DNA of 43,613 nucleotides. It comes from an uncultured Bacillota bacterium (GTDB taxonomy: Bacteria; Bacillota_I; Bacilli_A; Culicoidibacterales; ZOR0006). The notes under the pieces were generated by a model. The model saw nothing but the letters and a program-made list of their open reading frames with translations. It did not search any database and was not told the DNA's origin. The DNA lies in NCBI GenBank assembly GCA_945956935.1, contig CAMFJD010000013.1:1-43613 (forward strand). Reading direction: 5' to 3'. Positions 5,201-25,066 of this stretch are shown piece by piece (within the stretch, counting starts at the first letter, position 1; every line of letters starts with the position of its first letter). The position numbers were made by a program, and so were the translations under genes.

Positions 5201-5212
5201 ATAGATTCAAAC

Positions 5213-5245: not shown

Positions 5246-5264
5246 AAAAATAGGGGGTACTCAT

Positions 5265-6716: not shown

Positions 6717-6730
6717 GGAGTTCAACTCAT

Positions 6731-7600
6731 ATGGCAATTATTGCATACGATTTTGGTGGAACAGCAATTAAAGTAGGTGTGTTTGTTGAAGATCAACTTG
6801 TCGAGCGAACAAAATTTGCTACACCGAAAGTACAACATGAATGTCTTGAATTATTAATCGAACAGTTACGTAATTTTAGTAAAAACTATCCTATTACTGG
6901 AATAGCATTGAGTGTTCCAGGGGCTGCAAATCAAGCAACAGGAATAGTTGGTGGTGCAAGTGCTATACCCTACTTGCACAACTTTAATTGGTATGAATTT
7001 TTCCAACAGGAATTGTCAGTACCAGTGACAATGGCGAATGATGCGAATTGTGCGGCACTTGGTGAGGTGCACTATGGTGCTGCAAAAGGCTATGATGATG
7101 TCATTTTTGTAGTAATAGGTACTGGAATTGGTGGTGCAATCGTTAAAAATGGACAGGTACATGTTGGGAAAAATTTACATGGTGGTGAGTTTGGATACAT
7201 GATTCAAAATCCCAATACTTTGCAGATATGGAGTGAGCAAGCATCAACATACGCATTAATTCAAAGAGTATGTGCACTCACAGGTGAAATATATACAGGT
7301 GAAGAAATCTTTACAAAAATAAATCATAATGAAATTATTGCTGCTGAAGTAGTACAATGGTATCAAGATCTTGCAATTGGTATATACAATTTGCAATATA
7401 GCTTTGATCCCGAGTGTATTGTCATTGCTGGTGGTGTGAGTGAACATCCGACATTTTCCCAGGAAATAAACGAGGCAATGGAACATGTCTTACAAAGTGT
7501 TGGCATTGCTCAAATAAAGCCAAATATTCAAGTGGCAATGAATGGGAATCATTCAAATCTTTACGGAGCTTATGTACATCATCAACATATGACTTACTAA
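6731..7600 (+). CDS. ROK-family sugar kinase lacking the zinc-binding cysteines
   Basis: Phosphorylates a free hexose, probably mannose or another sugar freed by the glycosidases. The N-terminal phosphate loop DFGGTAIKVG (residues 6-15), the catalytic motif ANDANCAALGE and the GTGIGGA loop are all present. The ROK histidine/glutamate segment appears as HGGEFGYM, but the usual CxCGxxGC zinc cluster that follows is missing, as in some streptococcal and listerial ROK kinases. The protein has 289 residues and no DNA-binding domain, so it is a kinase rather than a ROK repressor. The ribosome site AAGGAG overlaps the end of the binding-protein gene, showing tight coupling. Substrate is inferred from context. 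Confidence 0.9.
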   Translation: MAIIAYDFGGTAIKVGVFVEDQLVERTKFATPKVQHECLELLIEQLRNFSKNYPITGIALSVPGAANQATGIVGGASAIPYLHNFNWYEFFQQELSVPVTMANDANCAALGEVHYGAAKGYDDVIFVVIGTGIGGAIVKNGQVHVGKNLHGGEFGYMIQNPNTLQIWSEQASTYALIQRVCALTGEIYTGEEIFTKINHNEIIAAEVVQWYQDLAIGIYNLQYSFDPECIVIAGGVSEHPTFSQEINEAMEHVLQSVGIAQIKPNIQVAMNGNHSNLYGAYVHHQHMTY

Positions 7601-7643
7601 AAATAATTAACGCAAAAAACTATTCGTTATTCTCTCAAAAAAT

Positions 7644-7723
7644 AAAAAGGGCAGATGTTGTTCAATCTGAAAATATGTGGCTTTGGAGCCAGACGCCCTT
7701 TTTCTGGCTCCAAAGCCACATAT
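7644..7723 (+). other. Structured intergenic RNA with a perfect 20-bp hairpin and a rival terminator fold
   Basis: Arms 7673-7692 and 7704-7723 are perfect inverted repeats of 20 bases around the 11-base loop ACGCCCTTTTT. A rival fold pairs AAAAAGGGC (7644-7652) with GCCCTTTTT (7695-7703), which would give a terminator-like stem ending in five T. Inside that fold CAGAT/ATCTG and TGGCT/AGCCA can make two smaller hairpins. The two folds exclude each other because the 3' side of the terminator is the loop of the long hairpin. It may end the upstream sugar operon or switch expression of the small gene that follows. Function is not known. Confidence 0.6.
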
Positions 7724-7745
7724 GCTGGGCGCACAAATTTAGGTT

Positions 7746-7771
7746 CAACCTTATTCTATAGTATAAGGTTG
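7746..7771 (+). promoter_or_regulatory. 9-bp inverted repeat just before the small ORF ribosome site
   Basis: CAACCTTAT (7746-7754) and ATAAGGTTG (7763-7771) are perfect inverted repeats with an 8-base spacer TCTATAGT. The spacer and right arm contain TATAGT and TATAAG, which could serve as a -10. The ribosome site GAGGAG starts two bases later. It could be an operator overlapping a promoter or an RNA hairpin affecting ribosome access; the sequence does not separate these. Confidence 0.45.
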
Positions 7772-7788
7772 TGAGGAGATGATTACTG

Positions 7789-7917
7789 ATGAAAAACGCA
7801 GTATCACTATTCTTAGAATGGATTATTCCACCAGTAGCAGATGAACAAACACCAAAACCAGTTGTCCAATGGCTGTTGTTTGATGCACATAATCAGTATT
7901 GTGCCTTCCACTTTTAG
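7789..7917 (+). CDS. Small ORF, 42 residues, unknown function
   Basis: An ATG at 7789, ten bases after the ribosome site GAGGAG (7773-7778), opens a 42-codon frame ending in TAG at 7915-7917. The peptide starts MKNAVSLFLEWIIPP and ends QWLLFDAHNQYCAFHF, so the C-terminal third is rich in aromatic residues, with one Cys and two His. There is no signal peptide or clear membrane helix. It is the only candidate gene between the ROK kinase and the shared terminator at 7972-8013, and it converges with two radical SAM genes. That makes a ribosomal peptide precursor conceivable, but the opposite strand and lack of homology evidence keep this a guess. It could also be a leader peptide or not translated. 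Confidence 0.4.
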   Translation: MKNAVSLFLEWIIPPVADEQTPKPVVQWLLFDAHNQYCAFHF

Positions 7918-7971
7918 GAAGTCCGTGCCCAGCTCCTAAGTGGATGACGCAAATTTTGCCGAATCCAAATA

Positions 7972-8013
7972 AAAAAGCGGTTAGAACACGTGAGAGTGTT
8001 CTAACCGCTTTTT
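7972..8013 (+). terminator. Bidirectional intrinsic terminator, 18-bp stem
   Basis: Arms 7972-7989 and 7996-8013 are perfectly complementary (core GCGGTTAGAACAC / GTGTTCTAACCGC) around a six-base loop GTGAGA. A runs on the left and T runs on the right make it work for both strands. It ends the small ORF transcript on the plus strand and the radical SAM operon on the minus strand, whose last stop codon abuts it at 8015. Confidence 0.9.
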
Positions 8014-8014
8014 A

Positions 8015-9265
8015 TTATTTTAAAATAATTTTTTTGGGAAAAGGAGTTTTTCTAGAAATGTTCCACATTTTATCAATATATGCCGTCGTATATGCCTGCT
8101 CTATGAGATGATAATAGTATGCTCCCTTATTTGTTAAGATATAACAGTTGTTTTGTACTTTAATTAAACCAAGTAATTTTGCAATCAATAATTCTAAGCC
8201 ATACAAATCTTCTAATTTGATTGCAAAAAAAGTTTCGAATTCAGCAGGATTGATTTCTGTGCTATAAGCACGCCAAAACAAATAATAGACAGCACGTTGG
8301 CGTAAAGTAAACCTTGTTGTGAGTGCAGTTGGCAGCTGATTAGCTTGAATTCGTTCAATATATGCTGGAATAGAAAAAGTATTGATTTTAAATTGTTCTT
8401 TTAATAATGTTGTTGCTGATACACCAAAACCTAAAAAATTATCCCGCGTCACAGATGAATACTTTTGGGTATTTGTTTCAGCAAAAGTCCAAACGGATGT
8501 TCGTTCGCGCCCAGTTTGTTCACAATAATCTGCAATTGCTGATAACATTTTTTTCTTTTGTTTTTCAGGGAGTGGTTTATATGTATTATGAGCGAAGGTA
8601 AAATCGATAAAAGGGTATGTGGAAATTTGTGTAGCACCGAGTGAAAAAGCTGTTTCGATATCTTTTATTAGCGTTTCATGTGTTTGACCGGGAATTGCAA
8701 AAATGAGATCAACATCAATCACGTCGAAACATGCAGCGCGTATAGTTTGGAATATATATGCATAGTCGAATGGAATTCGTCCGATAGTGTGTAAATGTTC
8801 AGATTGAAATGACTGAATACCGATACTAATCATTGATACGCCAAATGATTTTAATATTGATAAAACAAATGGATTGATATCATTTGGATGAAGTTCGACA
8901 CCGATACCACCATCGATTTCATAGTAGTGTTGTAATGTGTTGATAATACGACCTAAATCATGTAAAAGTAAAGCGGGTGTTCCACCACCAAAATAGAGAC
9001 TAGTTACCTTTTTTTTGCCAATTTGCATACTACCAACAAGTTTAATTTCAGTTAAAAGAGCATCGACATATTGTTTTGCTAAATTTGAATCATACTTCTG
9101 TTTGCAGTATGGGCAGAAGCTACAAAGTGTTCGACAAAATGGAATGTGCACGTATAATCCAAGCTGCTGTGTATCTTCATAGTTGAGGTACTCATCGTAA
9201 TGATCAGTGAAAATGAATGGTTGAAATGATCGTGTTAAATAAGCACGCATAAGTGATGTAAACAT
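8015..9265 (-). CDS. HemW/HutW-like radical SAM protein
   Basis: A radical SAM enzyme of the coproporphyrinogen III oxidase-like group (COG0635). The cluster motif is HIPFCRTLCSFCPYC: C44, C48 and C51 bind the 4Fe-4S cluster, with an extra C54 where HemW has YCDF-type residues. GGGTPAL and a C-terminal HemN-like helical domain (from about residue 330) follow. The 416-residue length fits. Start at 9265 follows GGAGGT (9277-9282). It is the second gene of a two-gene minus-strand operon, 28 bases after another radical SAM gene. True HemW is a heme chaperone, usually near hrcA-dnaJ; this copy is probably a paralogue with another role, for instance in heme or peptide chemistry. Substrate unknown. 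Confidence 0.85.
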   Translation of the reverse strand: MFTSLMRAYLTRSFQPFIFTDHYDEYLNYEDTQQLGLYVHIPFCRTLCSFCPYCKQKYDSNLAKQYVDALLTEIKLVGSMQIGKKKVTSLYFGGGTPALLLHDLGRIINTLQHYYEIDGGIGVELHPNDINPFVLSILKSFGVSMISIGIQSFQSEHLHTIGRIPFDYAYIFQTIRAACFDVIDVDLIFAIPGQTHETLIKDIETAFSLGATQISTYPFIDFTFAHNTYKPLPEKQKKKMLSAIADYCEQTGRERTSVWTFAETNTQKYSSVTRDNFLGFGVSATTLLKEQFKINTFSIPAYIERIQANQLPTALTTRFTLRQRAVYYLFWRAYSTEINPAEFETFFAIKLEDLYGLELLIAKLLGLIKVQNNCYILTNKGAYYYHLIEQAYTTAYIDKMWNISRKTPFPKKIILK

Positions 9266-9293
9266 AGGTGAATATTACCTCCATTAGTTGTAG

Positions 9294-10196
9294 TTAAATA
9301 TAACGCAAATAAGTTTGTATCATTTCAAAAATAATAGGAATATTTCCTTGGAAAAGAAGTGCATACTCAGCGGCGAAAAAATATCCACATTCACTGCAAA
9401 GATTATCAATATCAATGCAGCGACCACAGGTTGATATTATGCCGTTTTCCATTACAACACATTGGTGACAAGGAGTTGGGAAGGTATTATGAATAAGATA
9501 TGGAAAAGCACTCTTTAGATTGAAAATAGGATAACCTTCCTTCATTAAAAGTGTAATTTCATCACAAATTTGTTGTTTGTCTGCTATGGTTAAACGTAAA
9601 CGTTCAGTACCTGGATATGGTGTGTGGAAATTAAATGAAACTGCTCGAACATTTTTGGTTTCTTTTGCAATGGTACTGACTTGACGAATTTCATGTTTAT
9701 TGAGTTGATTAATCGCCATATATAAACAAATGTTATTGCTAGGGGCTTGTGCAATATTATGCATAATCGTATCAAATGTTTTTCCGCGAATACAATCATG
9801 GATATGCTTGCTGCCATCAAGACTAAGTAAGATTAGATCAGCTTCGGGTAGATTAAGTGTTAATGTTCCATTCGTAACAACGTTAACAATCGAAAATCCC
9901 ATAGCTTTAGCCTCTAGAACAAGCGTACGCAGTGAATGTGTGCCATCTTGCCAAAGAAATGTTTCACCGCCACAAAAAAATAAAATACGGATACCCATCT
10001 CGTATAGTATATTCATTTCTTGACGAATTTGTTTGTATGGATGAATAATAGCAGTAACATTATTGACAGCACAGTGTTGACAATGTAAATTACAACGATC
10101 TGTTAAAATAATCGTTCCAAGAATAGGCTGCTTTTTTTTAAAAACAATAGTTTTTATCCCGAAACTGGCGAATTGCATAAAATGATTGAATTTCAT
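9294..10196 (-). CDS. Radical SAM protein with a C-terminal six-cysteine cluster
   Basis: Contains the radical SAM motif DRCNLHCQHC (C35, C39, C42), the glycine-rich segment CGGETF, and LLSLDGS later in the barrel. The C-terminal ~60 residues hold six cysteines spaced Cx2Cx10Cx2Cx6Cx2C, which may bind auxiliary iron-sulfur clusters; this differs from the standard SPASM spacing. The start at 10196 (MKFNHF) is preferred because AAGGAGG lies 11 bases upstream; a longer frame from the GTG at 10217 would put the ribosome site inside the gene. It forms an operon with the HemW-like gene downstream. The reaction is unknown; peptide or tetrapyrrole modification are the two families of options. Confidence 0.8.
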   Translation of the reverse strand: MKFNHFMQFASFGIKTIVFKKKQPILGTIILTDRCNLHCQHCAVNNVTAIIHPYKQIRQEMNILYEMGIRILFFCGGETFLWQDGTHSLRTLVLEAKAMGFSIVNVVTNGTLTLNLPEADLILLSLDGSKHIHDCIRGKTFDTIMHNIAQAPSNNICLYMAINQLNKHEIRQVSTIAKETKNVRAVSFNFHTPYPGTERLRLTIADKQQICDEITLLMKEGYPIFNLKSAFPYLIHNTFPTPCHQCVVMENGIISTCGRCIDIDNLCSECGYFFAAEYALLFQGNIPIIFEMIQTYLRYI

Positions 10197-10226
10197 AGAA
10201 AACATAGCCTCCTTCACTTTGTAATT

Positions 10227-10235
10227 ATTGTAGCA
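10227..10235 (-). promoter_or_regulatory. Extended -10 promoter for the radical SAM operon
   Basis: On the minus strand TGCTACAAT gives an extended -10 (TACAAT at 10227-10232) 31 bases before the chosen start codon. The -35 region is weak, which is acceptable with an extended -10. No operator repeat is seen. The stretch 10236-10319 upstream of it holds no gene. Confidence 0.5.
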
Positions 10236-10326
10236 TTTTTTCGAATGAAAGTAATCTTTTATTAATCTAATAGTTACACAATATAATTTGTACAGCTATA
10301 TATACATTGATTTTAATTGAAAATAA

Positions 10327-10358
10327 AAAGGTTGTATCGATGATTAGATACAACCTTT
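10327..10358 (-). terminator. Intrinsic terminator of the GH85-GH1 operon
   Basis: AAAGGTTGTATC (10327-10338) and GATACAACCTTT (10347-10358) form a 12-bp stem with an 8-base loop. On the minus strand it is followed by TTTTTATTTT. It lies four bases after the GH1 stop codon. Confidence 0.9.
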
Positions 10359-10362
10359 GTTG

Positions 10363-11760
10363 CTATTTGGCTAGTGGTTTAGGAAGAGTATTAGTAGTAG
10401 CTAATTCATAGAACCATTCTCCTGAACGTTTAACTGTTCGCTTTTGTGTGGTTAAATCAAGCGAAATCAACCCATAGCGGTTTTTGTAGGCATTGAGCCA
10501 AGACCAGTTATCAATACCTGTCCAAACATGATATCCAACACAATTACTACCAGCATTGATTGCACGTGCAAGAGCAGTTAAATGATCATAAAAAAATTGG
10601 ATGCGATATATGTCTTGAATTTGCCCTGATTCGTTGGTAAATCGTTGTTCATTTTCCACACCCATCCCATTTTCAGCAACATACCAGCGGGGATTATCAT
10701 ACTCTGTTTTTAAACGCATAGCTAAATCGAAAATCCCTTCTGGATAAATTTCCCATCCTCGGTAAGGATTCATGACACGTTTTGGCCATTCGTAAGGAAT
10801 AAAATATGTGTCTGGCATGAATGAGTGGGTATTTGGTGTGCTTGGTGCTTGGACACGTCTTGGTTGGTAGTAATTAACGCCTAAAATATCAACACGATTT
10901 TGCGCAATAATAGCTAAGTCTGAGTCGGAATACGTAGGTAAGCATGCATGTTTTTTTAGGATATCGACGAGCGGTTGTGGGAATGTTCCTTTAAGTGCAG
11001 GGTCAAGGAAAGAGCGATTAAGAAAGCAGTCAGCAATTAGTGCTGCATATTTATGCTGTGGTTCATCATTTTTTGGGTATGTTGGTGAAAGATTGACTAT
11101 GATGCCAATTTCTCCACTAAATCCTCCAGTACGAAATGTATCAACAGCTAATGCATGAGCAAGTGCTAAATGATAACCAACTTGAGCAGCACGACGGCTG
11201 TCAACAATGCAAGGATAGTGAAAATGATCTAAATACCCACATTCAACGATAACGATTGGTTCATTGAATGTAAACCAGTGTGGAACAAGATCACCAAAGA
11301 GTGTAAAACATGTGTTTGCGTATGTGGCGTATGCATCGACGACATCACGATTTTCCCATCCACCAACATTTTGGAGTGGCATTGGTAAATCAAAGTGGAA
11401 CAGATTAACAAATGGTTCAATTCCAAGCGTGTGCATTGTCGATAAAACATCACGATAAAATATCACTGCTTGTTCATTAATAGCACCTGTTCCCTCAGGT
11501 ATTAAGCGAGACCAACTGATTGAGATTCGGAGAGAATTGAGTCCTACTTGACTAAGCAAGGCTAAATCTTCACGGTAATTTTGTGAAAATGTAGATGTTG
11601 TTTCTGGACCGACTTGATCAAAAAATAATTCTGGATTTTGTTCAAACCAATAATCCCAAATGTTTTGTCCTTTTCCATCTAATGGATGATAGCCTTCACT
11701 TTGTGGGGCAGAGGTCGCACTTCCCCAGTAGAAATTATTTGGAAATGTATAGTTCATCAT
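10363..11760 (-). CDS. Glycoside hydrolase family 1 beta-glycosidase
   Basis: Cleaves a terminal beta-linked sugar. The acid/base glutamate lies in TFNEP and the nucleophile in VAENGMG, both intact. The N-terminal FYWGSATSAPQSEG motif is typical of GH1. The start is the ATG pair at 11760/11757, directly after AAAGGAG; a longer frame from 11796 would include that ribosome site. Near the C-terminus, WSWLNAYKNRYG keeps the serine and tyrosine found in 6-phospho-glycosidases, but the phosphate-binding lysine position is Asn, with a Lys one residue earlier. A PTS is absent from the window, so an unphosphorylated substrate such as Man-beta-1,4-GlcNAc is possible. It follows the secreted GH85 gene, with a hairpin between them. 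No signal peptide: cytoplasmic. Confidence 0.93.
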   Translation of the reverse strand: MMNYTFPNNFYWGSATSAPQSEGYHPLDGKGQNIWDYWFEQNPELFFDQVGPETTSTFSQNYREDLALLSQVGLNSLRISISWSRLIPEGTGAINEQAVIFYRDVLSTMHTLGIEPFVNLFHFDLPMPLQNVGGWENRDVVDAYATYANTCFTLFGDLVPHWFTFNEPIVIVECGYLDHFHYPCIVDSRRAAQVGYHLALAHALAVDTFRTGGFSGEIGIIVNLSPTYPKNDEPQHKYAALIADCFLNRSFLDPALKGTFPQPLVDILKKHACLPTYSDSDLAIIAQNRVDILGVNYYQPRRVQAPSTPNTHSFMPDTYFIPYEWPKRVMNPYRGWEIYPEGIFDLAMRLKTEYDNPRWYVAENGMGVENEQRFTNESGQIQDIYRIQFFYDHLTALARAINAGSNCVGYHVWTGIDNWSWLNAYKNRYGLISLDLTTQKRTVKRSGEWFYELATTNTLPKPLAK

Positions 11761-11784
11761 AAAAACTCCTTTTTTTGTATGTGT

Positions 11785-11817
11785 GAAACGGCCCAATTAG
11801 GCAAACTGGACCGTTTC
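11785..11817 (-). other. Intercistronic hairpin between GH85 and GH1 genes
   Basis: GAAACGG (11785-11791) pairs with CCGTTTC (11811-11817), and CCA/TGG extend the stem beyond one mismatch. No T-run follows on either strand, so it does not look like a terminator. It separates the two genes of this operon, as another hairpin does in the ABC operon, and may set message stability. Confidence 0.55.
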
Positions 11818-11829
11818 GATAGTAGTTAT

Positions 11830-14586
11830 CTATTGTGTAGGTATACCGAAAACATCAATAGAGTAAATGCGTACTGCCGAATCAGCACCCTGACTAGGTT
11901 TGTTTACGGTAATTTTAACGTAGCGAGCTTTATGAGCTGCGAATGTATCAATTGTTTCTGCCAAAGCATTTTTTTTCACTTCAGTAACTGTTTCAAATGT
12001 AACTCCGTCAAGACTTGTTTCAATTGTATAGGACTGAGTGTTCATATCTGCTCCTTCACCACCAGCTTCAGCATGAGCCATATAAACTTGACTAATCATC
12101 ATTTCATTACCTAAATCAATTGTCAAATCATGTGGAGCAGGACCAACAGCACACCATTTAGTTGATAAGTCTTCATCTAATACGAACGGTGGTGCTTCAC
12201 CGTCATGAATGAAACTAGAAGCAGTGGCTGTTTTTCCTTGTGAAATATTAGTTACTTGATTGGCTGCTTCATCAACTGTAATTAATCCGATAATTTCACG
12301 TGTATCTTCACCTTTTTCATTTTTAGCAATAAGCGTTACTGGGTATGTACCAGGTGTACTATATGTTACTATTGGTTCATGTTCAGTTGATGTCTCGATG
12401 TCACTGCCTGGTAAAATCCATTCAAATTCTGTACTTGTTTGAGAACTTAAATTGACAAATGTTACATTGTTTCCTGGAGCAATCAATGTTTGGCTCGCTT
12501 TGAAATTTGCTTTTGGTAATGTATTATCAGGCCAAGTAAGTGTTACAGTTTGTTTATTTCCACGCTGGAAATCATCATTCAGCGCATAAACAGCAAAGGT
12601 TGTTTCATTCCCATTTTCGGCACGTTGTAATGCATTCACGAAGAAAATATTATTAGGTGTAGCTCCTAAAAATGAGAGGGACCCATCAGGATTTTCACGA
12701 TATATTTCATATCGTTTAGCTTGTTCTACTGGTTCAAAATCAATAGTTACTCCGGCAAACATATCATCTTCTTCAAAGAGCGAGTTAGTAATTGTTAATG
12801 TGCTCATGTCAAGTAGCGGGATGTCTTGTTTTGTTTGGAGTGTCAGTTTTCCAAGATTGAAAGTGAGTTTATTGACTGCAGTGTCTGATTGAAGTCCAAG
12901 GCTAACAGAAGTAATCGTTTGACCGGCATAATCACTTAGATCGAATTCAATCGTTGTCCATACGTCACTTGTATTTGTGCCAGCAATTGTGACGGTTTTA
13001 CCATCAGTAAATGTCAATACTAAGTCAACTTGAATTGGATTATTTGATGTCGCAGCAATAGTAGCAACCGCATTTTCAGGTATTGTAGCTTGTGCTGTGT
13101 ACAATGACCAGTAAGAAGGTGTATTAGCATCTAAATTTCCAGTAACTTTTAAGCTGTTTCCACCATAATAAGCATTCGCATAATCTAGTGTTACAGCTAA
13201 TTCATTTGCACCTTCATGTGTGAAAAGCCAACGATATGTTGGTAAGACATCTGCTAAACTACGGTTATTCCAATCAAGTAATGAAACTTGCTCACCATTG
13301 ATAAAATAGTTATAACCGTTTCCAACGTTAAAGTGAGTTTGGAATGGGAAACTCGTTAATACTGAACGTTCAGGAATATATGTTGAAATACCACGCCACT
13401 GTGTGTCTGTTGTTTGCGTTAATTTTGCAGGATTTTGGAATTCATTAACCCAGAAGCGATTTTCTTTCATTTCAAAGTCATCAGGATTATCTGAAGAGGC
13501 ATATGACCAACTTGGACTATATAAACCAAGCGATGTTTGAGTTGTATTTTCACGTTCAAACAAATCCCATTGAACAGGTGTTGAGAATCCCTCAGCTTGA
13601 ACATCAATTCCAGCGTATAATTCATACGGATCGAATTGGATTTGAGTTGCTAATTCATGTGTTTTTTCTAATAGCTTTTCAGGTGCTAATTTATTAGTTG
13701 TCCACCAGAAATTAAGAAACATACTATCAGCGATTTTTTGTTGATTTTCATCCATAATGAAAAATTGATTTTTATCAGTTAAAGCATTTTGCCAATCCAT
13801 CTCACCATCTTTCGTCATTGAATCGTACCACATAATTTCTAATTCAGGCGCTGTAGCTTTAAATGCTTTGATAAATTCACGCATTTTCTGTGCGTGTTCA
13901 GCAGTTAGTTGTGCTTCATCGCTTGATTCAGTTTCTTGATTGATAAACCACCCTTCAAAACCATAAGTATTTGCAACTTGAATAAGTTTAGCAATCATTG
14001 GAAAATCCCCATTTTCATCCTGTGCCAAAAATAAATCAAGCCACTCCATTTTCCCACCATGAGCTGTCATCGGAAAGAAAACAGTTCCTAATACAGGGAC
14101 ACCATTTTTGTGAGCGATATCAATGACATCTGCACTTGGCGGAACAATGATACCTTCTCCAGATGATCCTCCCCAATAGACGAGTTTGTCAACGTATTGC
14201 CAGTAAGAGAATGTATTGGCACGAAATGATGTACTCCCTTGTGCAGGATTTCCACTTGTACTAGTATTCATCATGGAAATCGCAACGAGGTTAGTATCGT
14301 GATTTTGTTTTTCGTGTAGTAACGGTAACTTTGTCTTGTCAATACGTTCGACAAGTGGTTGTGTACTGATGTGGAATGCGTTGTTTTCATCCGTAATTGG
14401 ATCCCACTGGAGAAGTTCATCTGGAAACCAATGTGGAGCTAGTGGTTGGTTACTCATTTTCAATGTGGAACCTTCTTCTGTCATGTTGAATGTAATTGAA
14501 GATTGAGTGTTTGTCCCACTGCAACCACTCAACAGTGCTGCTGCACTTAGTATACAAGCACATGGTAAAAATTTGTTAGTACGCAT
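11830..14586 (-). CDS. Endo-beta-N-acetylglucosaminidase lipoprotein, GH85, with CBM, FN3-like, PKD and F5/8C domains
   Basis: Releases N-glycans from glycoproteins by cutting the chitobiose core outside the cell. It has a lipoprotein signal with lipobox LLSGC (C22), so it should be anchored to the membrane. The GH85 barrel spans about residues 50-350 and carries GFEGWFINQET, with N216 and E218 as the paired catalytic residues. Next come a galactose-binding-like/CBM module (about 430-590), an FN3-like module (600-700), a PKD domain (about 705-790) and a C-terminal F5/8 type C (discoidin) domain (about 795-918) that probably binds glycan. The total is 918 residues. The ribosome site GGAGG lies eight bases before the ATG. 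The GH1 gene follows, and a cre site lies upstream. Protein and glycan type are inferred. Confidence 0.93.
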   Translation of the reverse strand: MRTNKFLPCACILSAAALLSGCSGTNTQSSITFNMTEEGSTLKMSNQPLAPHWFPDELLQWDPITDENNAFHISTQPLVERIDKTKLPLLHEKQNHDTNLVAISMMNTSTSGNPAQGSTSFRANTFSYWQYVDKLVYWGGSSGEGIIVPPSADVIDIAHKNGVPVLGTVFFPMTAHGGKMEWLDLFLAQDENGDFPMIAKLIQVANTYGFEGWFINQETESSDEAQLTAEHAQKMREFIKAFKATAPELEIMWYDSMTKDGEMDWQNALTDKNQFFIMDENQQKIADSMFLNFWWTTNKLAPEKLLEKTHELATQIQFDPYELYAGIDVQAEGFSTPVQWDLFERENTTQTSLGLYSPSWSYASSDNPDDFEMKENRFWVNEFQNPAKLTQTTDTQWRGISTYIPERSVLTSFPFQTHFNVGNGYNYFINGEQVSLLDWNNRSLADVLPTYRWLFTHEGANELAVTLDYANAYYGGNSLKVTGNLDANTPSYWSLYTAQATIPENAVATIAATSNNPIQVDLVLTFTDGKTVTIAGTNTSDVWTTIEFDLSDYAGQTITSVSLGLQSDTAVNKLTFNLGKLTLQTKQDIPLLDMSTLTITNSLFEEDDMFAGVTIDFEPVEQAKRYEIYRENPDGSLSFLGATPNNIFFVNALQRAENGNETTFAVYALNDDFQRGNKQTVTLTWPDNTLPKANFKASQTLIAPGNNVTFVNLSSQTSTEFEWILPGSDIETSTEHEPIVTYSTPGTYPVTLIAKNEKGEDTREIIGLITVDEAANQVTNISQGKTATASSFIHDGEAPPFVLDEDLSTKWCAVGPAPHDLTIDLGNEMMISQVYMAHAEAGGEGADMNTQSYTIETSLDGVTFETVTEVKKNALAETIDTFAAHKARYVKITVNKPSQGADSAVRIYSIDVFGIPTQ

Positions 14587-15014: not shown

Positions 15015-16736
15015 TTAGTCCCAGAAGCTATTACTTTGTTGCAATTGATAATAGTAACCTTTATTTTCCATGAGTTGATCATGCGTTCCACGTTCTGCAA
15101 TACCTTGCCGTCCTAAGACGATGATTTCGTCAGCGCTTTTTACGGTGCTGAGGCGATGAGCAATAATAATGTTTGTACGACCAATTGTTAAAGCATCCAG
15201 TGCTTGCTGAACTTGATATTCTGTAATTGTATCGAGTGCTGATGTTGCCTCATCTAAAATTAAAATTTGTGGATTTTTTAAAAATACACGTGCAATAGCA
15301 ATACGCTGTTTTTGCCCACCAGATAATTTGACACCACGTTCACCAACGAGTGTATCATAGCCATCTTCGAGTTTACAGATGAAATCATGGATATGCGCAC
15401 GTTTTGCTGCTTCGATTACTTGCTCAGTAGTAGCATCAGGATTACCATAGAGGATATTGTCGCTAATTGAACCCCAGAAAATATATACGTCTTGTTGAAC
15501 GTGTCCAATGCTTGAACGTAAGTCAGCGAGATCTAATGTGCGAATATCATGATTATCAAGTGAGATTGTACCATTGGATATATCATAAAAGCGAGGAATA
15601 AGCTGTGATATTGTCGATTTACCGACACCAGATTCGCCGACTAAAGCTATTTTACGCCCAGCAGGTATATGGAGTGAAAAATTATGTAACACAGGGATTT
15701 CACTTGTAGGGTACGTAAAATCAACATGTTTAAACGTAATGTCCCCCTTCACTTCAGCTAAGTGTGTTGCATTGTTAGGTGAAGTGATTTCTGGTACTAA
15801 TTCCATAACATCGTGGAAGCGTTCAAATCCAGCCCATCCAGTTTGAAATTGTTGCATAAAAGCAATTAGACGTCGAATTGGCTGAACTAAAAAATTAATA
15901 TATAGAAGATACGCTGTAAATTCACCAAAAGCTAATTCACCACGAATAACAAAGATTGCACCAAAAACAAGGACAAATAAATTTAACATATCAATGAGGA
16001 AATTATTTCCACTCGTGAAAATAGCCATTTGTTTGTAAGCACCACGCCATGAATCACGATAACGTTCATTATTTTCACGGAAGCGTTCAATTTCAAAATC
16101 TTCATTTACAAAAGATTGGACGAGCCGAATACCCCCAATACTACTTTCAATCGTAGAATTGATTTCTCCATGAGTTTTACGAATCTCACGGAATCCACGC
16201 ATCATTTTATCACGACGTGACAATGAAAACCAAATAATAATCACAACAATTGGAAAAATGATGAGTGTAAAGAGTGCATTCATCGAAAATAAAATGAAGA
16301 AACTTCCGATGAGCATAATAGTTGAGATGAGTAAGTCCTCAGGTCCATGATGAGCTAACTCAGTAATATCACGTAAATCACCTGTAATTCGTGTCATAAT
16401 TGTCCCAGTTTTATTTTCATCATAGTAACTAAATGGTAGTAGTTGAAATTTCTTAAATAAATCGCGGCGCATATCGTGTTCGATGTTTGTTCCCATAATA
16501 TGACCCCAATAGTTGACAATATAAGAACAACCAAGACGTAATAAAAAGAGTGCGAGTAGGATACCAACAAAAATAAAAATTGCTGATATATTTTGATTTG
16601 GAATGAAATCATCAATGAATCGTGCTGTGAAAGCAGGATAGACCAAATCGATAACTGCCATAAAGAGTGCAGCACTCATATCTAAGATGAAAAGCTTAGT
16701 ATGCGGTTTGTAATAACTAATAAAACGTTTAAACAT
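15015..16736 (-). CDS. ABC exporter, fused permease and ATPase (multidrug/lipid type)
   Basis: A half-transporter that works as a dimer to export drugs, lipids or peptides. The N-terminal ~310 residues contain six hydrophobic segments with the intracellular loops of type I exporters. The ATPase domain follows with Walker A GESGVGKST, signature LSGGQKQR, Walker B ILILDEATSALD and H-loop IIAHRLST. The length of 573 residues is standard. The start ATG at 16736 follows GGAGGG (16746-16751). It stands alone, with its own promoter and terminator, so it is probably a homodimer. No peptidase domain is present, so it is not a bacteriocin-processing exporter. Substrate cannot be told from sequence. Confidence 0.93.
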   Translation of the reverse strand: MFKRFISYYKPHTKLFILDMSAALFMAVIDLVYPAFTARFIDDFIPNQNISAIFIFVGILLALFLLRLGCSYIVNYWGHIMGTNIEHDMRRDLFKKFQLLPFSYYDENKTGTIMTRITGDLRDITELAHHGPEDLLISTIMLIGSFFILFSMNALFTLIIFPIVVIIIWFSLSRRDKMMRGFREIRKTHGEINSTIESSIGGIRLVQSFVNEDFEIERFRENNERYRDSWRGAYKQMAIFTSGNNFLIDMLNLFVLVFGAIFVIRGELAFGEFTAYLLYINFLVQPIRRLIAFMQQFQTGWAGFERFHDVMELVPEITSPNNATHLAEVKGDITFKHVDFTYPTSEIPVLHNFSLHIPAGRKIALVGESGVGKSTISQLIPRFYDISNGTISLDNHDIRTLDLADLRSSIGHVQQDVYIFWGSISDNILYGNPDATTEQVIEAAKRAHIHDFICKLEDGYDTLVGERGVKLSGGQKQRIAIARVFLKNPQILILDEATSALDTITEYQVQQALDALTIGRTNIIIAHRLSTVKSADEIIVLGRQGIAERGTHDQLMENKGYYYQLQQSNSFWD

Positions 16737-16770
16737 ATTGAAAAACCCTCCTGTTTTGATGTTATTTTCA

Positions 16771-16799
16771 ATTGTATTTTAATGGAAGTAAAATAGCAA
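16771..16799 (-). promoter_or_regulatory. Sigma-A promoter of the ABC exporter gene
   Basis: On the minus strand TTGCTA (16794-16799) and TACAAT (16771-16776) are separated by 17 bases. The start codon lies 35 bases beyond. Just upstream of the -35, AGTAC and GTACT (within 16803-16820) form a small inverted repeat that might bind a regulator. Confidence 0.7.
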
Positions 16800-16910
16800 G
16801 AGAAGTACGACAAAAGTACTCACAAAGTAAAAATGAGTATATCACGACTGTTTTTTAATCTTTTTTCGTTGTTTATTATGAAAATAGCATTTTTTTACAA
16901 GTCAACTATA

Positions 16911-16997
16911 TGTTAAAATAGAAAGCGAAGTATAACTTTCATGTAATGATTGCTCAAAAAGGGTTCGTAAGGAATCGATCTTTGAGCGTTTTTTTTG
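16911..16997 (+). promoter_or_regulatory. rlmN promoter and leader with intrinsic terminator (possible attenuator)
   Basis: TGTTAAAAT (16911-16919) is an extended -10. The transcript would start near 16926 and immediately meet an intrinsic terminator: GCTCAAA (16952-16958) pairs with TTTGAGC (16981-16987), followed by eight T (16989-16996). The loop holds a second hairpin, GGTTC/GAATC. A first hairpin, GAAAG/CTTTC (16921-16925, 16936-16940), precedes it. No other promoter is visible between the terminator and rlmN, so expression of rlmN would require readthrough. No leader peptide with a ribosome site is seen. Regulation by attenuation is inferred. Confidence 0.6.
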
Positions 16998-17031
16998 AAA
17001 TTATTGTATGAGAGATTTAAAGGAGAAAAAA

Positions 17032-18087
17032 ATGAAACCAACAATTTATGATTTAACATATGAACAATTAGAGGCTTGGATGCTTGAAAATGGCGAGAAG
17101 AAATTCCGTGCACAACAAATTTGGAACTGGTTATATATCCAACAAGTAAGTGAATTTTCACAAATGAACAATATTTCAAAAGTTTTACTTGAAAAATTGG
17201 CAAATCATTTTATTTTATCGCCGCTTACATTAAAAGTAATGCAAGCATCAAGTGATGGAACACGTAAATATTTATTTACTTTAAATGACGGAACGTTAAT
17301 TGAAACAGTACTAATGCCACACCGTTATGGAAATTCAGTTTGTGTAACAACACAAGTAGGATGTAATATTGGGTGTTCATTTTGTGCGAGTGGGACATTA
17401 AAAAAACAACGCGATTTAACTGCAGGAGAAATCATGGCTCAAGTGATGCTTGTACAACAAGATTTAAACACACTTGAAAGTGATGAACCACAACGCGTGA
17501 GTCATATCGTTATTATGGGAATTGGTGAACCATTCGATAACTACGATAATTTTATGGATTTTATTTGGATTGTGAATCATCCAAAAGGATTGGCAATCGG
17601 AGCACGTCACATTACTGTTTCAACAAGTGGAATTGTACCGAAAATTCGCCAATTTGCACAAGAAGGAATTCAAGTGAATTTGGCAATTTCATTACATGCA
17701 CCAAATGATGAATTACGTTCGTCAATTATGAAGATTAATAACGCGTATCCGATTCCAGAATTAATGGATGCAGTACGTGAATATATTCAAGTGACAAATC
17801 GTCGAATTACGTTCGAATACATCATGATGAAAGGTGTGAATGATCAAATTATTCATGCCCGCCAATTAGTAAAATTAGTTCGTGGAATGAATGCGTATAT
17901 TAACTTAATTCCATTCAATGCCGTAGATGAGCATGGATACCAACGCAGTACCAAAGAAGATGTATCAGCCTTCTTTGATTATTTGAAAAAAGAAAAAATT
18001 CAAGTAATGGTTCGTCGCGAATTTGGTCACGATATCGATGCAGCTTGTGGACAGTTACGTGCAAAAAAATTAACTGAAGAAAACTAA
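17032..18087 (+). CDS. rlmN: 23S rRNA (adenine2503-C2)/tRNA methyltransferase RlmN
   Basis: A radical SAM enzyme that methylates A2503 of 23S rRNA and A37 of some tRNAs. The cluster motif CNIGCSFC gives C111, C115 and C118, and the catalytic C-terminal cysteine is C339 in DAACGQLR. The [11 protein letters not shown] motif is present. The start at 17032 is chosen because TAAAGGAG lies just before it and would fall inside the gene if the ATG at 17008 were used. At 351 residues it is of normal size. It heads the conserved block rlmN-prpC-prkC-rsgA-rpe-thiN. The usual upstream neighbours fmt and rsmB are missing; an ABC exporter is divergent instead. Confidence 0.97.
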
Positions 18088-18107: not shown

Positions 18108-18854
18108 GTGGAAACATTTTATGCAACGAATCTTGGTCGTATTCGTGATAATAACGAGGATCAAGTGAACATTTTCGAAACACAAACATCACTAGTGTTA
18201 GCTGTTGCAGATGGTATGGGGGGACATCATGCTGGAGAAGTTGCGAGCCAAATCGCCATAGAAAGTGTTCAAGCAGCAATGCCATATTTGCCAGTACATT
18301 ATAATAAACAATTAGCCAAAAAATGGTTAGTTGAAATTTTTGAATATGCCAATCAAAAAATATATGATACAGCAAAAGTAGAAGAAGATAAAAAAGGAAT
18401 GGGAACAACGCTCACAATTGCGTTATTTCATAAAGATTTTTTATTGATTGCGAACCTTGGTGATAGCCGAGCATATTTGGTGAATGAAAATGAAATTATG
18501 CAGTTGACTGAAGATCAAACGTTTGTGAATCAATTAGTAAAACTAGGACAACTTTCACCTGAAGATGCTGCAAAGCATCCGCAGCGTAATGTATTGTTGC
18601 AAGCGTTAGGAACAGAGCTGCAAATTGAAGTTGATTTGTATGATATAGATTCTAAAGAAATCCAAGGATTACTCTTATGCTCAGATGGATTAACTGATAT
18701 GGTCACTGATTTTGAAATCTTAGCGATTTTCCAACATTTTAAGAATGCGAAAGCAATTGGTGAAGAACTGATTCAATTTGCGAATGAAAAAGGTGGAAAA
18801 GATAATATTTCGGTGGCACTCGTTCAAACTGGAGGTGAACAACATGCTGAATAA
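18108..18854 (+). CDS. prpC: PP2C-type protein phosphatase PrpC/Stp
   Basis: Removes phosphate from Ser/Thr residues of proteins, reversing the PrkC kinase encoded next. PP2C metal-site motifs are all seen: RIRDNNED, DGMGGHHAGE, NLGDSRAY, CSDGLTD and GGKDNIS. The start is the GTG at 18108, seven bases after GGAGGGG; an earlier GTG at 18093 would include that site. The product has 248 residues. Its last 11 bases overlap the prkC start, so the two are translationally coupled. Mn/Mg-dependent, cytoplasmic. Confidence 0.96.
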   Translation: METFYATNLGRIRDNNEDQVNIFETQTSLVLAVADGMGGHHAGEVASQIAIESVQAAMPYLPVHYNKQLAKKWLVEIFEYANQKIYDTAKVEEDKKGMGTTLTIALFHKDFLLIANLGDSRAYLVNENEIMQLTEDQTFVNQLVKLGQLSPEDAAKHPQRNVLLQALGTELQIEVDLYDIDSKEIQGLLLCSDGLTDMVTDFEILAIFQHFKNAKAIGEELIQFANEKGGKDNISVALVQTGGEQHAE

Positions 18855-20724
18855 AGAAGAATTAATTGGTGGAAGGTACCGCATAAAATCACTGATTGGT
18901 GATGGCGGAATGGCAAATGTCTATCTTGCCTATGATGAAATTTTACAACGTGAAGTAGCGGTGAAAGTACTCCGTTATCAACTGGCGAGCGATGCTGTTT
19001 TTGTCCGCCGTTTTGAGCGAGAAGCACAATCGGTTACAGCATTGAGTCACCCTAACATTGTGAATGTATATGATGTTGGAAGCGAAGGAGACACGCACTA
19101 TATTGTGATGGAATATGTGACAGGAAATACTGTCAAGCAACTGATTCAAGCGCGTGGATATTTAACAGTTATAGAAGCAGTTGAAATTATGCAACAAATT
19201 TTAGCAGCTGTTGAGCAGGCACATGATTTTGGCATTGTACACAGAGATTTAAAGCCACAAAATATTATTGTTCGCCCAGATGGGATTGTTAAAGTCATGG
19301 ACTTTGGAATTGCTTTAACACAAGAGGCAACAAGTTTGACACAAACACATTCAGTCATGGGATCGGTACAATATTTATCGCCGGAACAAGTGCGCGGAGA
19401 AACCGCAACAAATCAATCAGATTTATATGAATTAGGGATTGTCTTGTATGAAATGTTGACCGGTGAGTTACCATTTGATGGTGAAAGTGCTGTGAACATT
19501 GTGTTGAAACACCTTAAAGATGAATTACCAGATATTCAAGTGAAAAATGCTGAAGTACCTAATAGTCTTGTAAATATTATTAATCGAGCAACAGCAAAAG
19601 AAAAAAGTAATCGCTATCCAAATGCTCAAGAAATGCGTCAAGATTTACAGAGTTCATTAAACCCTGAACGTTTGAATGAACCAATAGTTCCAATTGATGT
19701 ATGGGTTGATACGGCCGTGAATGCAATGGCTCAAGAACTTGAAGTAACTCAAGAAGTTCCCGTTCTTGTACGTAAAAAGGTAGATATAACACAAAGTACT
19801 GAAGCAGTTGCTCAAGAAGCTGTACAAAAAATTGCGAACGCACAAGTGCAACCAGAATCAGGAGTAAGTAAAAAGAAAAAGAAAAAACCTTGGTTGCTTC
19901 CAACAATTATTGTTGCAATTATTTTAGCACTTGTGACAGGTGGACTTGTGTATGCAAACTACCAACAAAATCGTAAAATTGAAATACCTAATGTAAGTAA
20001 TTTAACCTTATCACAAGCACAGGAAACACTAACAGAACTTGGCTTACTCGTAAGTCAAAAAGTAAACTATGAGTACAGTGATACAATTGACAAAGGGAAA
20101 GTTATCAGCTCTGATCCAAAGGCGGGTACTTCAGTTGAACGTAATACGAGCGTGACATTGACCGTTTCAGAAGGTATGGAAGTGTATATGCCATATATTG
20201 TTGGAAAAACGAAAGCAGATGCTCTTGCAGCATTAGATAAATTGAAAATTCGCAATCAAACTGTTGAAGAATACAGCGATCAACCTGAAGGTGTAGTATT
20301 AACACAGAGCATTGCGGAAGGCAGTTTTGTTGATACTGTTTCGGATGTAGCATTGTTAACAATCAGCAAAGGTCCAGCACCAATTTATATGGAAGATTTT
20401 ACAGGATTTACAAAAGAAGCAGTTGAGCGATTTGCGAATGAAAATGGTTTAGAGTTGGAAATTGTAGAAGAAGGTTCATCGAGTGCGGTTGGGACAGTGC
20501 TAAAACAGTTTCCAGCGAGTGGATCAAAATTAAATGTCGGTGATAAAATTAGTATTACAATTGCGAAAAAGCAAAGTATTTTTGATAGCTTATTCCCTTC
20601 AACACCGGAATCTGATACAAATACATCAACTGATACGACAACTCCGCCAGAAGATACGACTCCATCAACGGAAACACCGACAACTACACCAGAAGACACA
20701 TCTGGGACACAAACAGGAAACTAA
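18844..20724 (+). CDS. prkC: PASTA-domain Ser/Thr protein kinase PrkC/Stk
   Basis: A membrane sensor kinase for cell-wall growth and division, thought to bind muropeptides or lipid II through PASTA domains. The kinase domain (1-270) has GDGGMANVYLA, the ATP-binding K41, HRDLKPQN with D135, and DFG at 153. After a Lys-rich stretch, a single membrane helix covers about 346-370. Three PASTA repeats follow outside the cell (about 375-575), then a Thr/Pro-rich tail to residue 626. The start is the ATG at 18844 after GGAGGTG. It overlaps prpC and is followed 11 bases later by rsgA. Three PASTA units is within the normal range of the family. Confidence 0.97.
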   Translation: MLNKEELIGGRYRIKSLIGDGGMANVYLAYDEILQREVAVKVLRYQLASDAVFVRRFEREAQSVTALSHPNIVNVYDVGSEGDTHYIVMEYVTGNTVKQLIQARGYLTVIEAVEIMQQILAAVEQAHDFGIVHRDLKPQNIIVRPDGIVKVMDFGIALTQEATSLTQTHSVMGSVQYLSPEQVRGETATNQSDLYELGIVLYEMLTGELPFDGESAVNIVLKHLKDELPDIQVKNAEVPNSLVNIINRATAKEKSNRYPNAQEMRQDLQSSLNPERLNEPIVPIDVWVDTAVNAMAQELEVTQEVPVLVRKKVDITQSTEAVAQEAVQKIANAQVQPESGVSKKKKKKPWLLPTIIVAIILALVTGGLVYANYQQNRKIEIPNVSNLTLSQAQETLTELGLLVSQKVNYEYSDTIDKGKVISSDPKAGTSVERNTSVTLTVSEGMEVYMPYIVGKTKADALAALDKLKIRNQTVEEYSDQPEGVVLTQSIAEGSFVDTVSDVALLTISKGPAPIYMEDFTGFTKEAVERFANENGLELEIVEEGSSSAVGTVLKQFPASGSKLNVGDKISITIAKKQSIFDSLFPSTPESDTNTSTDTTTPPEDTTPSTETPTTTPEDTSGTQTGN

Positions 20725-20735
20725 GAGGATAAGAC

Positions 20736-21623
20736 ATGGCAACAGGATTAATTGTAAAAGCGCTGAGTGGATTCTATTATGTACGTGATGATAAAACACA
20801 TCAAGTGATTGAATGTCGAGCACGCGGTAAATTCCGTAAAGATGATATAAAACCATTAGTAGGTGATCATGTTACATATGAAGCTGAACATTTGAAAGAA
20901 GGGTATATTTTAGCAATCGAGCAACGGCAAAACTCACTTGTTCGACCACCAATTGCAAATATCGATCAAGCTTTTATTGTAATGTCTACAATCATTCCTG
21001 ATTTTAGTACACACCTCGTTGATAAATTTATTTTATTGGCACAGCATCATGGTATTGATCCAGTGATATGCGTAACGAAAATGGATGTATTACTAGGTGA
21101 ATCACGCAGTATTTTAGCGAATACATTGGATGAATATCGAGCAATCGGTTATGATGTGATAGAGTTAGGTACTGATAACCCTCAAGGGTATCAGATCTTA
21201 GCACCATACATTTCACAAAAAGTTAGTGTGCTAGCTGGGCAATCTGGGGCAGGAAAATCGACGCTGTTAAACCAATTAAATGCAGATTTTGAATTGAAAA
21301 CAGGAGAAGTTTCTAAAAGTTTAGGACGTGGTCGGCATACAACAAGACATGTTGAACTGCTAGAAGTGTGTGAAGGTTTTGTTGCGGATACACCTGGATT
21401 TAGTCAGCTAGAGCTCATTGATTTTACAAAACAAGATGTAAGCGAATCATTTGGTATGTTTGAATCATTGAGCCATGATTGTCGTTTTAGGGGATGTTCA
21501 CATATCCACGAACCGAAATGTGCTATTAAAGCAGCGGTTGAAGCCGGTACAATTCCAAAATGGCACTATGAGAATTATGTTACATTTATTGATGAAGTAG
21601 CGCAACAAAAACCAAAGTACTAA
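20736..21623 (+). CDS. rsgA: Ribosome small subunit GTPase RsgA (CpgA)
   Basis: A GTPase that checks late 30S ribosome assembly. The GTPase motifs come in permuted order, as the family requires: TKMD (G4) first, then GQSGAGKST (G1) and DTPGF (G3). An N-terminal OB fold (1-65) and a C-terminal zinc-binding segment with C/H ligands (HDCRFRGCSHIHEPKC) bracket it. Length 295 is normal. It closes the rlmN-prpC-prkC-rsgA transcript: an intrinsic terminator starts right at its stop codon. In Bacillus this protein is also a PrkC substrate; that link is known for the family, not shown here. Confidence 0.97.
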   Translation: MATGLIVKALSGFYYVRDDKTHQVIECRARGKFRKDDIKPLVGDHVTYEAEHLKEGYILAIEQRQNSLVRPPIANIDQAFIVMSTIIPDFSTHLVDKFILLAQHHGIDPVICVTKMDVLLGESRSILANTLDEYRAIGYDVIELGTDNPQGYQILAPYISQKVSVLAGQSGAGKSTLLNQLNADFELKTGEVSKSLGRGRHTTRHVELLEVCEGFVADTPGFSQLELIDFTKQDVSESFGMFESLSHDCRFRGCSHIHEPKCAIKAAVEAGTIPKWHYENYVTFIDEVAQQKPKY

Positions 21624-21651
21624 AAAACGGATCACTTGATCCGTTTTTTTT
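21624..21651 (+). terminator. Intrinsic terminator after rsgA
   Basis: AAAACGGATC and GATCCGTTTT form a 10-bp stem with loop ACTT, ending in a run of T to 21651. It directly follows the rsgA stop codon and separates this transcript from the rpe promoter. Confidence 0.93.
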
Positions 21652-23885: not shown

Positions 23886-23924
23886 AGAAAACGCTTGCAA
23901 AGGGGGTCGCGTGTATAGTATATT
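23886..23924 (+). promoter_or_regulatory. Promoter with embedded cre site for the tandem pseudoknot RNA
   Basis: The -35 TTGCAA (23895-23900) and a -10 TATATT (23919-23924) are 18 bases apart. The -35 lies inside a cre site: minus-strand TTGCAAGCGTTTTCT (23886-23900) matches WTGNAANCGNWNNCW at all fixed positions. CcpA bound here would exclude RNA polymerase. The promoter begins ten bases after the YvbH-like gene, and transcription would start close to 23930. Confidence 0.75.
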
Positions 23925-23929
23925 ATAGA

Positions 23930-24268
23930 CAAGGCCAGAGCGAGTAAAAGATGTGCTCGCGTAGAGAAGTTGATACATCTCCTGAGGTTAGAGTGGATTC
24001 GAAGTGCGTCCATGTCAAAAAAATGTACTGTTCAAAGGTTATGAGCGGACTAATTGCTATTCGCGTAAACAAATGTAGCAATTGAGTAAGAGCGAAGTGT
24101 AGGAACTTCGTGATTGAAAATAAGTCCTACAGAGTAAAAGCGGAGAAGGGACAATGCTTCGCGTAAATAAAATAACAGTTCCATAGTGAGAGCGGAGATA
24201 GGAAACTTCGTGCAAAAAAAAATAAACGGCCTACTAGAGCATGTTTTGAAAAAAACATGCTCTTTTTA
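23930..24268 (+). ncRNA. Structured RNA of six tandem H-type pseudoknots
   Basis: No ribosome site or reading frame of note lies here. Six units of 47-53 bases follow each other. First stems (S1): GCGAG/CTCGC (23940, 23956), GTGGAT/GTCCAT (23993, 24008), GCGGA/TTCGC (24045, 24060), GCGAAG/CTTCGT (24092, 24106), GCGGAG/CTTCGC (24140, 24157), GCGGAG/CTTCGT (24192, 24206). Each S1 loop pairs with a site further on (S2): AGATGT/ACATCT (23949, 23975), AGTGC/GTACT (24003, 24025), AATTGCTA/TAGCAATT (24052, 24076), GTAGGA/TCCTAC (24099, 24125), GGGAC/GTTCC (24148, 24178), TAGG/CCTA (24199, 24230). The linker before each S2 partner is 11-18 bases and mostly A-rich, as in known pseudoknots. AGGCC (23932) and GGCCT (24228) could close the whole RNA. 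An intrinsic terminator ends it. I do not recognise the family. Confidence 0.85.
24236..24268 (+). terminator. Intrinsic terminator of the pseudoknot RNA
   Basis: AGAGCATGTTTT (24236-24247) and AAAACATGCTCT (24252-24263) form a 12-bp stem with a GAAA tetraloop, followed by TTTTATT. The EEP hydrolase ribosome site starts only about 15 bases beyond, so this terminator may also control that gene. Confidence 0.93.
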
Positions 24269-24298: not shown

Positions 24299-25066
24299 AT
24301 GAAAATAATGACTATGAATTTACACTGCTTACAAGAAGCAAATCCGAGAGCTTGTTTACAAACATTAGCAGAGACAATTATCAATGAAGGATATGATTTG
24401 ATTTTTTTACAAGAACTTGTTGAAGTAATAGCATTTGATCTAACAACAGAAATTCATGATACTGGTGCTTACTTAATTGCACAATTGAAACGAGAGAATT
24501 CAGCATATCAATTAGTAAAAAGTTATGCGCATGAGTCATGGGGGAATTGTCGTGAATATGTGGGAATTATCACTCGATTACCAATTATTCAGTCGCAGAC
24601 AGTTGTATTAAGTGAGCGAAGCGATCCAACTGATATCGATCGTCGTGTCGCACAATCAGTACAAATTGAAACAGATGGAAAAATTGTCTGTTGTTTAAGT
24701 ACACATATGAGTTGGCCTGAAAATAATCAGTCAACGAAATTTTTAGAACAACTTGACCAACTCAATCAATATGTGAAGACGTTGAATATGCCAATCATTC
24801 TTGGTGGTGACTTAAATATAACGCCAGATACAAAAGAATATCATGCACTCCTTGCGGCTGGATGGGTTGACGCATACTATACAATGAATCATCAACATGA
24901 TTGGACATGTATTGAATATGAAGGTGAAACGATCAGCTATCAACATATTGATTATATTTTGACGAATCGATCAGTGGTAACGACTGACGTATATCGAATA
25001 TTTACTACTCCAACACAAATGATTTCAGATCATGTAGGAGTAAGTGCTGAGTGTACTATTCTATAA
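24299..25066 (+). CDS. Endonuclease/exonuclease/phosphatase (EEP) family hydrolase
   Basis: A metal-dependent phosphodiesterase of the EEP fold (DNase I, sphingomyelinase and sugar-phosphatase relatives). Visible motifs are TMNLHCLQ at the N-terminus, FLQELVE with the metal-binding Glu, THMSWP, LGGDLNITP with the Asp/Asn pair, and the terminal SDHVG histidine. The product is 255 residues without signal peptide, so it is intracellular; substrate is unknown. The ATG at 24299 follows AAGGAGG. The space between the RNA terminator and the ribosome site is too short for an obvious separate promoter, so the gene may depend on readthrough from the pseudoknot RNA. Confidence 0.88.
   Translation: MKIMTMNLHCLQEANPRACLQTLAETIINEGYDLIFLQELVEVIAFDLTTEIHDTGAYLIAQLKRENSAYQLVKSYAHESWGNCREYVGIITRLPIIQSQTVVLSERSDPTDIDRRVAQSVQIETDGKIVCCLSTHMSWPENNQSTKFLEQLDQLNQYVKTLNMPIILGGDLNITPDTKEYHALLAAGWVDAYYTMNHQHDWTCIEYEGETISYQHIDYILTNRSVVTTDVYRIFTTPTQMISDHVGVSAECTIL

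Follow-up and report, generated by a model that had tools for sequence, protein, structure and literature searches.

A conserved intrinsic terminator in the rlmN leader, predicted to hold down transcription of an rlmN-stp-prkC-rsgA operon

In the vmlR and cplR systems (PMC9226507, PMC10201436) and in hflXr (PMC6310831), short upstream ORFs in the leader sense translation-blocking drugs, and alternative RNA structures are involved, as described in those sections of the papers that deal with the leaders. The response of rlmN itself has been followed in Enterococcus faecalis where, in the part of the study concerned with this gene, erythromycin left rlmN mRNA and protein without significant change, and the chloramphenicol MIC was 16-fold higher once rlmN had been deleted (PMC10336011). 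None of the open-licence PubMed Central matches listed, judged mostly by their listing, describes transcription attenuation of rlmN, which is weak evidence for novelty. Here we describe a terminator upstream of rlmN in the window, that is, the whole stretch of 43,613 nucleotides that was analysed. A first-pass annotation had pointed to an attenuator-like leader at this site and had considered its control by ribosome state or antibiotics conceivable.

The rlmN gene (17032-18087, plus strand; 351 amino acids) matches TIGR00048 at 448.3 bits, above the cut-off of 290. Its start codon is the ATG at 17032, preceded by the Shine-Dalgarno site AAAGGAG (17019-17025, plus strand), which pairs with the anti-SD sequence at -9.1 kcal/mol. 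Downstream on the same strand are stp encoding a PP2C phosphatase (18108-18854; NF033484, 271.8 bits against 230), a prkC-type gene encoding a PASTA Ser/Thr kinase (18844-20724; NF033483, 598.6 bits against 450) and rsgA encoding a ribosome GTPase (20736-21623; domains RsgA_GTPase and RsgA_N). The starts of stp and of the prkC-type gene were placed by eye. The stp gene begins 20 nt past rlmN and lies downstream of rlmN in a congener too, at 78% identity; the prkC-type gene overlaps stp. A terminator at 21627-21651 (plus strand; stem 21627-21644, then seven T) is the probable end of the unit. From this layout we infer that stp is on the same transcript as rlmN and that the operon comprises rlmN-stp-prkC-rsgA. 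Upstream of rlmN, on the minus strand, is a divergent gene encoding an MsbA-like ABC exporter (15015-16736), an ORF with the Pfam domains ABC_membrane and ABC_tran whose best NCBIfam match, MsbA, falls below its cut-off. Its likely promoter, TTGCTA-17-TACAAT (16771-16799, minus strand), reads TTGTTG-17-TATAAT in the congener. Since the upstream neighbour is divergent, the terminator in the rlmN leader is not the 3' end of another gene.

The terminator hairpin spans 16952-16987 of the plus strand. Read from its 5' end, it consists of the arm GCTCAAA (16952-16958), unpaired AAG, the inner strand GGTTC (16962-16966), the loop GTAAG, the inner strand GAATC (16972-16976), unpaired GATC and the arm TTTGAGC (16981-16987), followed by a G and a tract of eight T (16989-16996). 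Sequence and folding confirm both nested stems and the eight T that had been noted before the ribosome site; the structure is not the bifurcated terminator it had been called, being a single hairpin with a 7-bp base stem, an internal loop and a 5-bp upper stem (16952-16996 with the T tract). Its folding energy is -13.8 kcal/mol. The leader has what is expected of a 5'-leader intrinsic terminator: a G+C-containing hairpin with an immediate T tract on the sense strand, placed, as judged by sequence only, between promoter and start codon, and conserved in the two of two genus genomes compared. A terminator scan of the window did not list this hairpin because it accepts loops of at most 8. Terminator-type structures are enriched in the window, though any single match could be due to chance: there are 17 (both strands, two bidirectional ones counted twice) where 20 dinucleotide shuffles average 4.35, and at -9 kcal/mol or better 12 where the shuffles average 1.4. 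Conservation in the congener is stronger evidence for the rlmN leader terminator than is the enrichment over shuffles. The d score of the rlmN terminator is 15.0 and that of its congener counterpart 15.5; eight other plus-strand terminators of the window score from -25.1 to 38.1, three of them above it, and its predicted strength is within their range.

The comparison was made with the sole other genus genome compared, in which RlmN is 93% identical, and all inference on the conservation of the leader is limited by its being one comparison of two species. The congener has the same divergent neighbour, an ABC exporter with 83% identity over 396 amino acids, where the locus ends. It also carries the leader, again before rlmN. 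The borders of the leader segments were chosen after the alignment was seen. The segment ATGATTGCTCAAAAA is identical at 15 of 15 positions and 16981-16997 at 16 of 17, the lone mismatch being the base after the T tract; both arms of the base stem and all eight T are kept. Farther upstream, 14 of 15 positions are identical in 16849-16863 and 24 of 25 in 16872-16896, and the ribosome-site region is identical at 9 of 13. The intervening segments have diverged (3/14, 10/26, 8/20 and 7/21 identical), with 38% identity in the 26 nt before and 33% in the 21 nt after the conserved terminator parts; the remaining intergenic region, 16737-16848, is identical at 60 of 112 positions (54%). For reference, the fourfold-degenerate sites of rlmN are identical at 59 of 117, and the segments between the conserved parts have diverged as far as these sites or further. 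The probability of two identity runs this long in 295 columns is 5e-5 at a background of 50%, 0.001 at 60% and 0.0086 at 65%. Pairing of the upper stem is preserved through one two-sided change, from G-U to U-A. Just 5' of the stem, both species have the hexamer ATGATT (16946-16951), though it lies outside the base stem; with two sequences this identity may be due to chance.

The main candidate promoter, P2, has an extended -10 element, TGTTAAAAT (16911-16919, plus strand), that is kept at 9 of 9 positions in the congener, and a T-rich -35 region; we assumed that its RNA starts near 16926. P2 scores 10 in the window and 9 in the congener. Since a score at this level is met about once per kb, the case for P2 rests on conservation and not on score. 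Upstream of it is a second candidate, P1 (TTTTTA-16-TATTAT, 16852-16879, plus strand; -10 candidate TATTAT at 16874-16879), flanked by conserved blocks, which could equally be read as an UP-like block of P2. Both lie upstream of the terminator, and transcripts from either candidate must cross it to reach rlmN and probably also to reach stp, prkC and rsgA. The best promoter-like match behind the terminator is TG-A-AATTAT (TGAAATTAT, 16996-17004), with a score of 9; scores of at least 9 occur at 4.15 per kb on the plus strand of the window, and shuffling yields one in 16.5% of 24-position stretches. In the congener the best score in this region is 7, at a site too near the ribosome site, and neither in the window nor in the congener is there a post-terminator promoter that is conserved or clearly above chance. 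The statement that only one promoter is seen for rlmN has to be widened to include the conserved candidate P1 and the weak match at 16996-17004. A second promoter at 16997-17031 had been named as a finding that would speak against attenuation; the best match there is this weak, unconserved one with a score not clearly above chance, and TGAAATTAT could act as a weak rescue promoter in this species.

We favour the reading, with a probability of about 0.62, that this is a promoter-proximal intrinsic terminator keeping transcription of the operon low, with read-through either fixed or modulated in trans. The hairpin, the T tract, their position and their conservation in one relative are observed; termination in the cell, its efficiency and any regulation are predicted from these. 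According to this model, transcription from P2, or from the more distant P1, would produce a short leader in which the hairpin forms, and most polymerases would halt at the eight T, some 70 nt downstream of P2. Those that read through would be the only ones to yield rlmN-stp-prkC-rsgA mRNA, the terminator setting a low default for the operon. Read-through might be a fixed fraction, or might be raised in trans by an elongation factor or RNA-binding protein acting on the polymerase or the hairpin. These two options follow from no sensor having been found in the leader, and if read-through is controlled, the control is probably in trans. Should the terminator function in this way, the amounts of RlmN, of the PASTA kinase and phosphatase and of RsgA in this lineage would be set after initiation as well as at the promoter.

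The same elements could be read as a ribosome-mediated attenuator. In that case a ribosome that initiates or stalls at ATG-TAA (16941) or at ATG-ATT-GCT-CAA-AAA (16946) would mask the 5' arm, the hairpin would be blocked and the polymerase would enter rlmN, such that drugs targeting the peptidyl transferase centre would induce the operon. We tested this proposal as far as sequence allows and consider it unlikely. The ATGATT shared by both species outside the stem is where a parked ribosome would cover GCTCAAA, and three-codon upstream ORFs (MIN, MRI) control vmlR and cplR via drugs that stall early translation, according to the passages on these peptides (PMC9226507, PMC10201436). However, neither upstream ATG has a Shine-Dalgarno site in the window or in the congener, ATG-TAA is missing from the congener, and the frame from ATGATT is not kept, running for 21 codons in the window versus 5 in the congener; the two species have just five codons of the candidate peptide MIAQK... 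in common, and three of these overlap the stem. The anti-SD energies are -1.5 kcal/mol for ATG-TAA and 0.5 kcal/mol for ATG-ATT in the window, and 0.0 kcal/mol for ATG-ATT in the congener; those of five real genes (rlmN, stp, rsgA, rpe and thiN) range from -6.1 to -11.7 kcal/mol. Examination of every ATG, GTG and TTG in the leaders detected no ribosome site at the level of real genes save one before a TTG of the congener (-5.1), a value reached by 10% of all plus-strand ATGs of the window; the corresponding codon in the window gives 1.9. A conserved short ORF with a ribosome site was not found in the leader, nor was an antiterminator overlapping the terminator above chance, as 32-77% of shuffled leaders match. 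The 5' arm pairs with the upstream leader no better than in shuffled leaders, 33-57% of shuffles pairing as well when the RNA starts at P2 (three assumed starts) and 32% and 77% when it starts from P1. The E. faecalis results, as far as that part of the study goes, are of the same kind: rlmN mRNA was not responsive to erythromycin (PMC10336011) and, since loss of rlmN raises the chloramphenicol MIC, drug-induced RlmN would bring no obvious benefit. By analogy with another organism that has a different rlmN leader, these data argue against antibiotic induction as the purpose. A minimal ribosome-sensing attenuator working without an antiterminator, in which a ribosome on the ATG would mask the 5' arm and stalled initiation would activate the operon, seems quite improbable to us; if true, it would tie translation stress to cell-wall signalling, joining RlmN and RsgA with the PASTA kinase and phosphatase. 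Having no ribosome site for an upstream ORF, no antiterminator above chance and no Rfam match, the leader does not support the suggested control by ribosome state or antibiotics; its description as attenuator-like is supported, by a conserved terminator between conserved promoter candidates and rlmN.

We also considered other roles of the leader. The hairpin may mainly shape the read-through mRNA, through 5' stability or processing, as could be suggested by a 16-bp outer stem (16936-16951 with 16999-17014) that encloses the terminator in the window, by the folding of the leader 16922-17031 at -24.5 kcal/mol (z -2.57; one of 200 shuffles as good) and by the congener too forming an outer helix. 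We give this little credence: the outer helices of the two species have different sequences and pairing partners, that of the congener uses its T tract, their strands are 33-38% identical, and the kept eight T are what a terminator needs. It is very unlikely that the locus encodes a stand-alone small RNA of ~70 nt with its own terminator and only incidental read-through. Promoter, short RNA and terminator would make a complete unit with conserved signals, but the parts that could pair with targets are not conserved (5' part 10/26, upper hairpin 8/20 identical) and rlmN would be left without a conserved promoter. A ligand riboswitch or T-box leader is extremely unlikely, even though 7 of 14 leader terminators in chosen stretches of this genome have a known Rfam family no more than about 105 nt away (T-box twice, SAM, FMN, purine, SQ2397 and sRNA_0030); the seven stretches were chosen among twelve that had leader terminators. 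The rlmN leader terminator differs from those seven in matching no known family. No Rfam aptamer or leader model matches the rlmN leader at gathering score, and relaxing the search to E up to 1 adds only two microRNA families, far below threshold. The stem is preceded by only about 26 nt (from P2) or 66 nt (from P1), mostly unconserved, and the 26 nt from P2, its start being assumed, are too short for an aptamer.

Among 296 genomes of the class, a sample drawn from a larger group, the exact two-arm pattern is present in the two congeners, each carrying it before rlmN, and in none of the other 294. A slightly longer terminator pattern had no match in viral contigs. Two relatives from the order are without the rlmN leader, indicating that the operon does not generally need it. 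We compared 110 rlmN loci, taken from 30 of 53 matched genomes and from 80 named loci among the matches listed. By a rough ORF caller the upstream gene is divergent in 30, co-directional in 78 and undetermined in 2; an rsmB-like gene, by a loose motif, is directly upstream in 10 of the 110, and in this genome rsmB itself is on another contig. A sense terminator-like structure is present within 300 nt at 8 of the 30 rlmN loci with a divergent neighbour, both congeners included. Of the other six, four carry a promoter-like site, with a score of 10 or 11, in the stretch from the terminator to rlmN, and two show just weak hairpins (-7.4 and -8.5) adjoining the start. With this rough calling, no further locus among the 110 had both a strong terminator and a divergent neighbour while lacking a promoter-like site past that terminator. 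Across the window and a further 400 kb of this genome, sampled as 20 stretches of 20 kb with a rough gene caller, 8 of 66 divergent-start genes have a sense terminator-like structure in the 150 nt before them, meaning that such genes seldom have a leader terminator; together with the seven of 14 near Rfam families, this makes leader terminators a normal device in this genome.

Elsewhere in the window, 23890-24262 probably encodes a structured non-coding RNA of about 330 nt. It has a promoter-like start (TATAGTATATTATA), recurring hairpins of the AGCGRAG..CTTCGYG type, GGCC at its ends and a terminator, and is located upstream of an endonuclease/exonuclease/phosphatase-like gene (24300-25066). 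It has no Rfam match but one at chance level. The congener carries it at 72% identity over 332 query positions; in a fold of the two-sequence alignment, none of the 76 pairs is broken and 18 have both bases changed, such a fold favouring pairs that both sequences allow. The window also encodes a GH38 alpha-mannosidase (2066-5200), a GH1 enzyme (10363-11796) and a GH85 endo-beta-N-acetylglucosaminidase with PKD and F5/8 type C domains (11830-14586); with parts of a binding-protein transporter and a ROK protein in 2066-14586, this gene set suggests glycan use. Two adjoining radical SAM genes, assigned at Pfam domain level, lie on the minus strand at 8015-10217.

Compared with described systems, in so far as the cited papers set them out, the rlmN leader terminator is an ordinary element in kind, mildly interesting for the operon that it gates. 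As in vmlR of Bacillus subtilis (PMC9226507), a ribosome-related gene carries an intrinsic terminator within its 5' leader and premature termination would be the default. The vmlR leader differs in its length of 219 nt and in its upstream ORF with a ribosome site, its anti-antiterminator and its antiterminator; no counterpart of these was found at rlmN. A short terminated leader RNA before a ribosome-associated gene is likewise described for hflXr (lmo0762)/rli80 of Listeria monocytogenes (PMC6310831), where, unlike at rlmN, a 14-aa ORF with an RLR motif is translated and alternative structures form; no such ORF was found at rlmN. The yxjB gene of B. subtilis (PMC6851288) is, like rlmN, a 23S rRNA methyltransferase gene with control placed ahead of the coding region; it depends on tylosin-dependent ribosome stalling and NusG-dependent pausing, whereas no upstream ORF with a ribosome site was found in the rlmN leader. 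The rplJL operon of B. subtilis is autoregulated by L10(L12)4 (PMC4538822), and differs from the rlmN leader, in which an Rfam search identified no protein-binding structure; what the two may share is transcription attenuation by a trans-acting factor on the leader.
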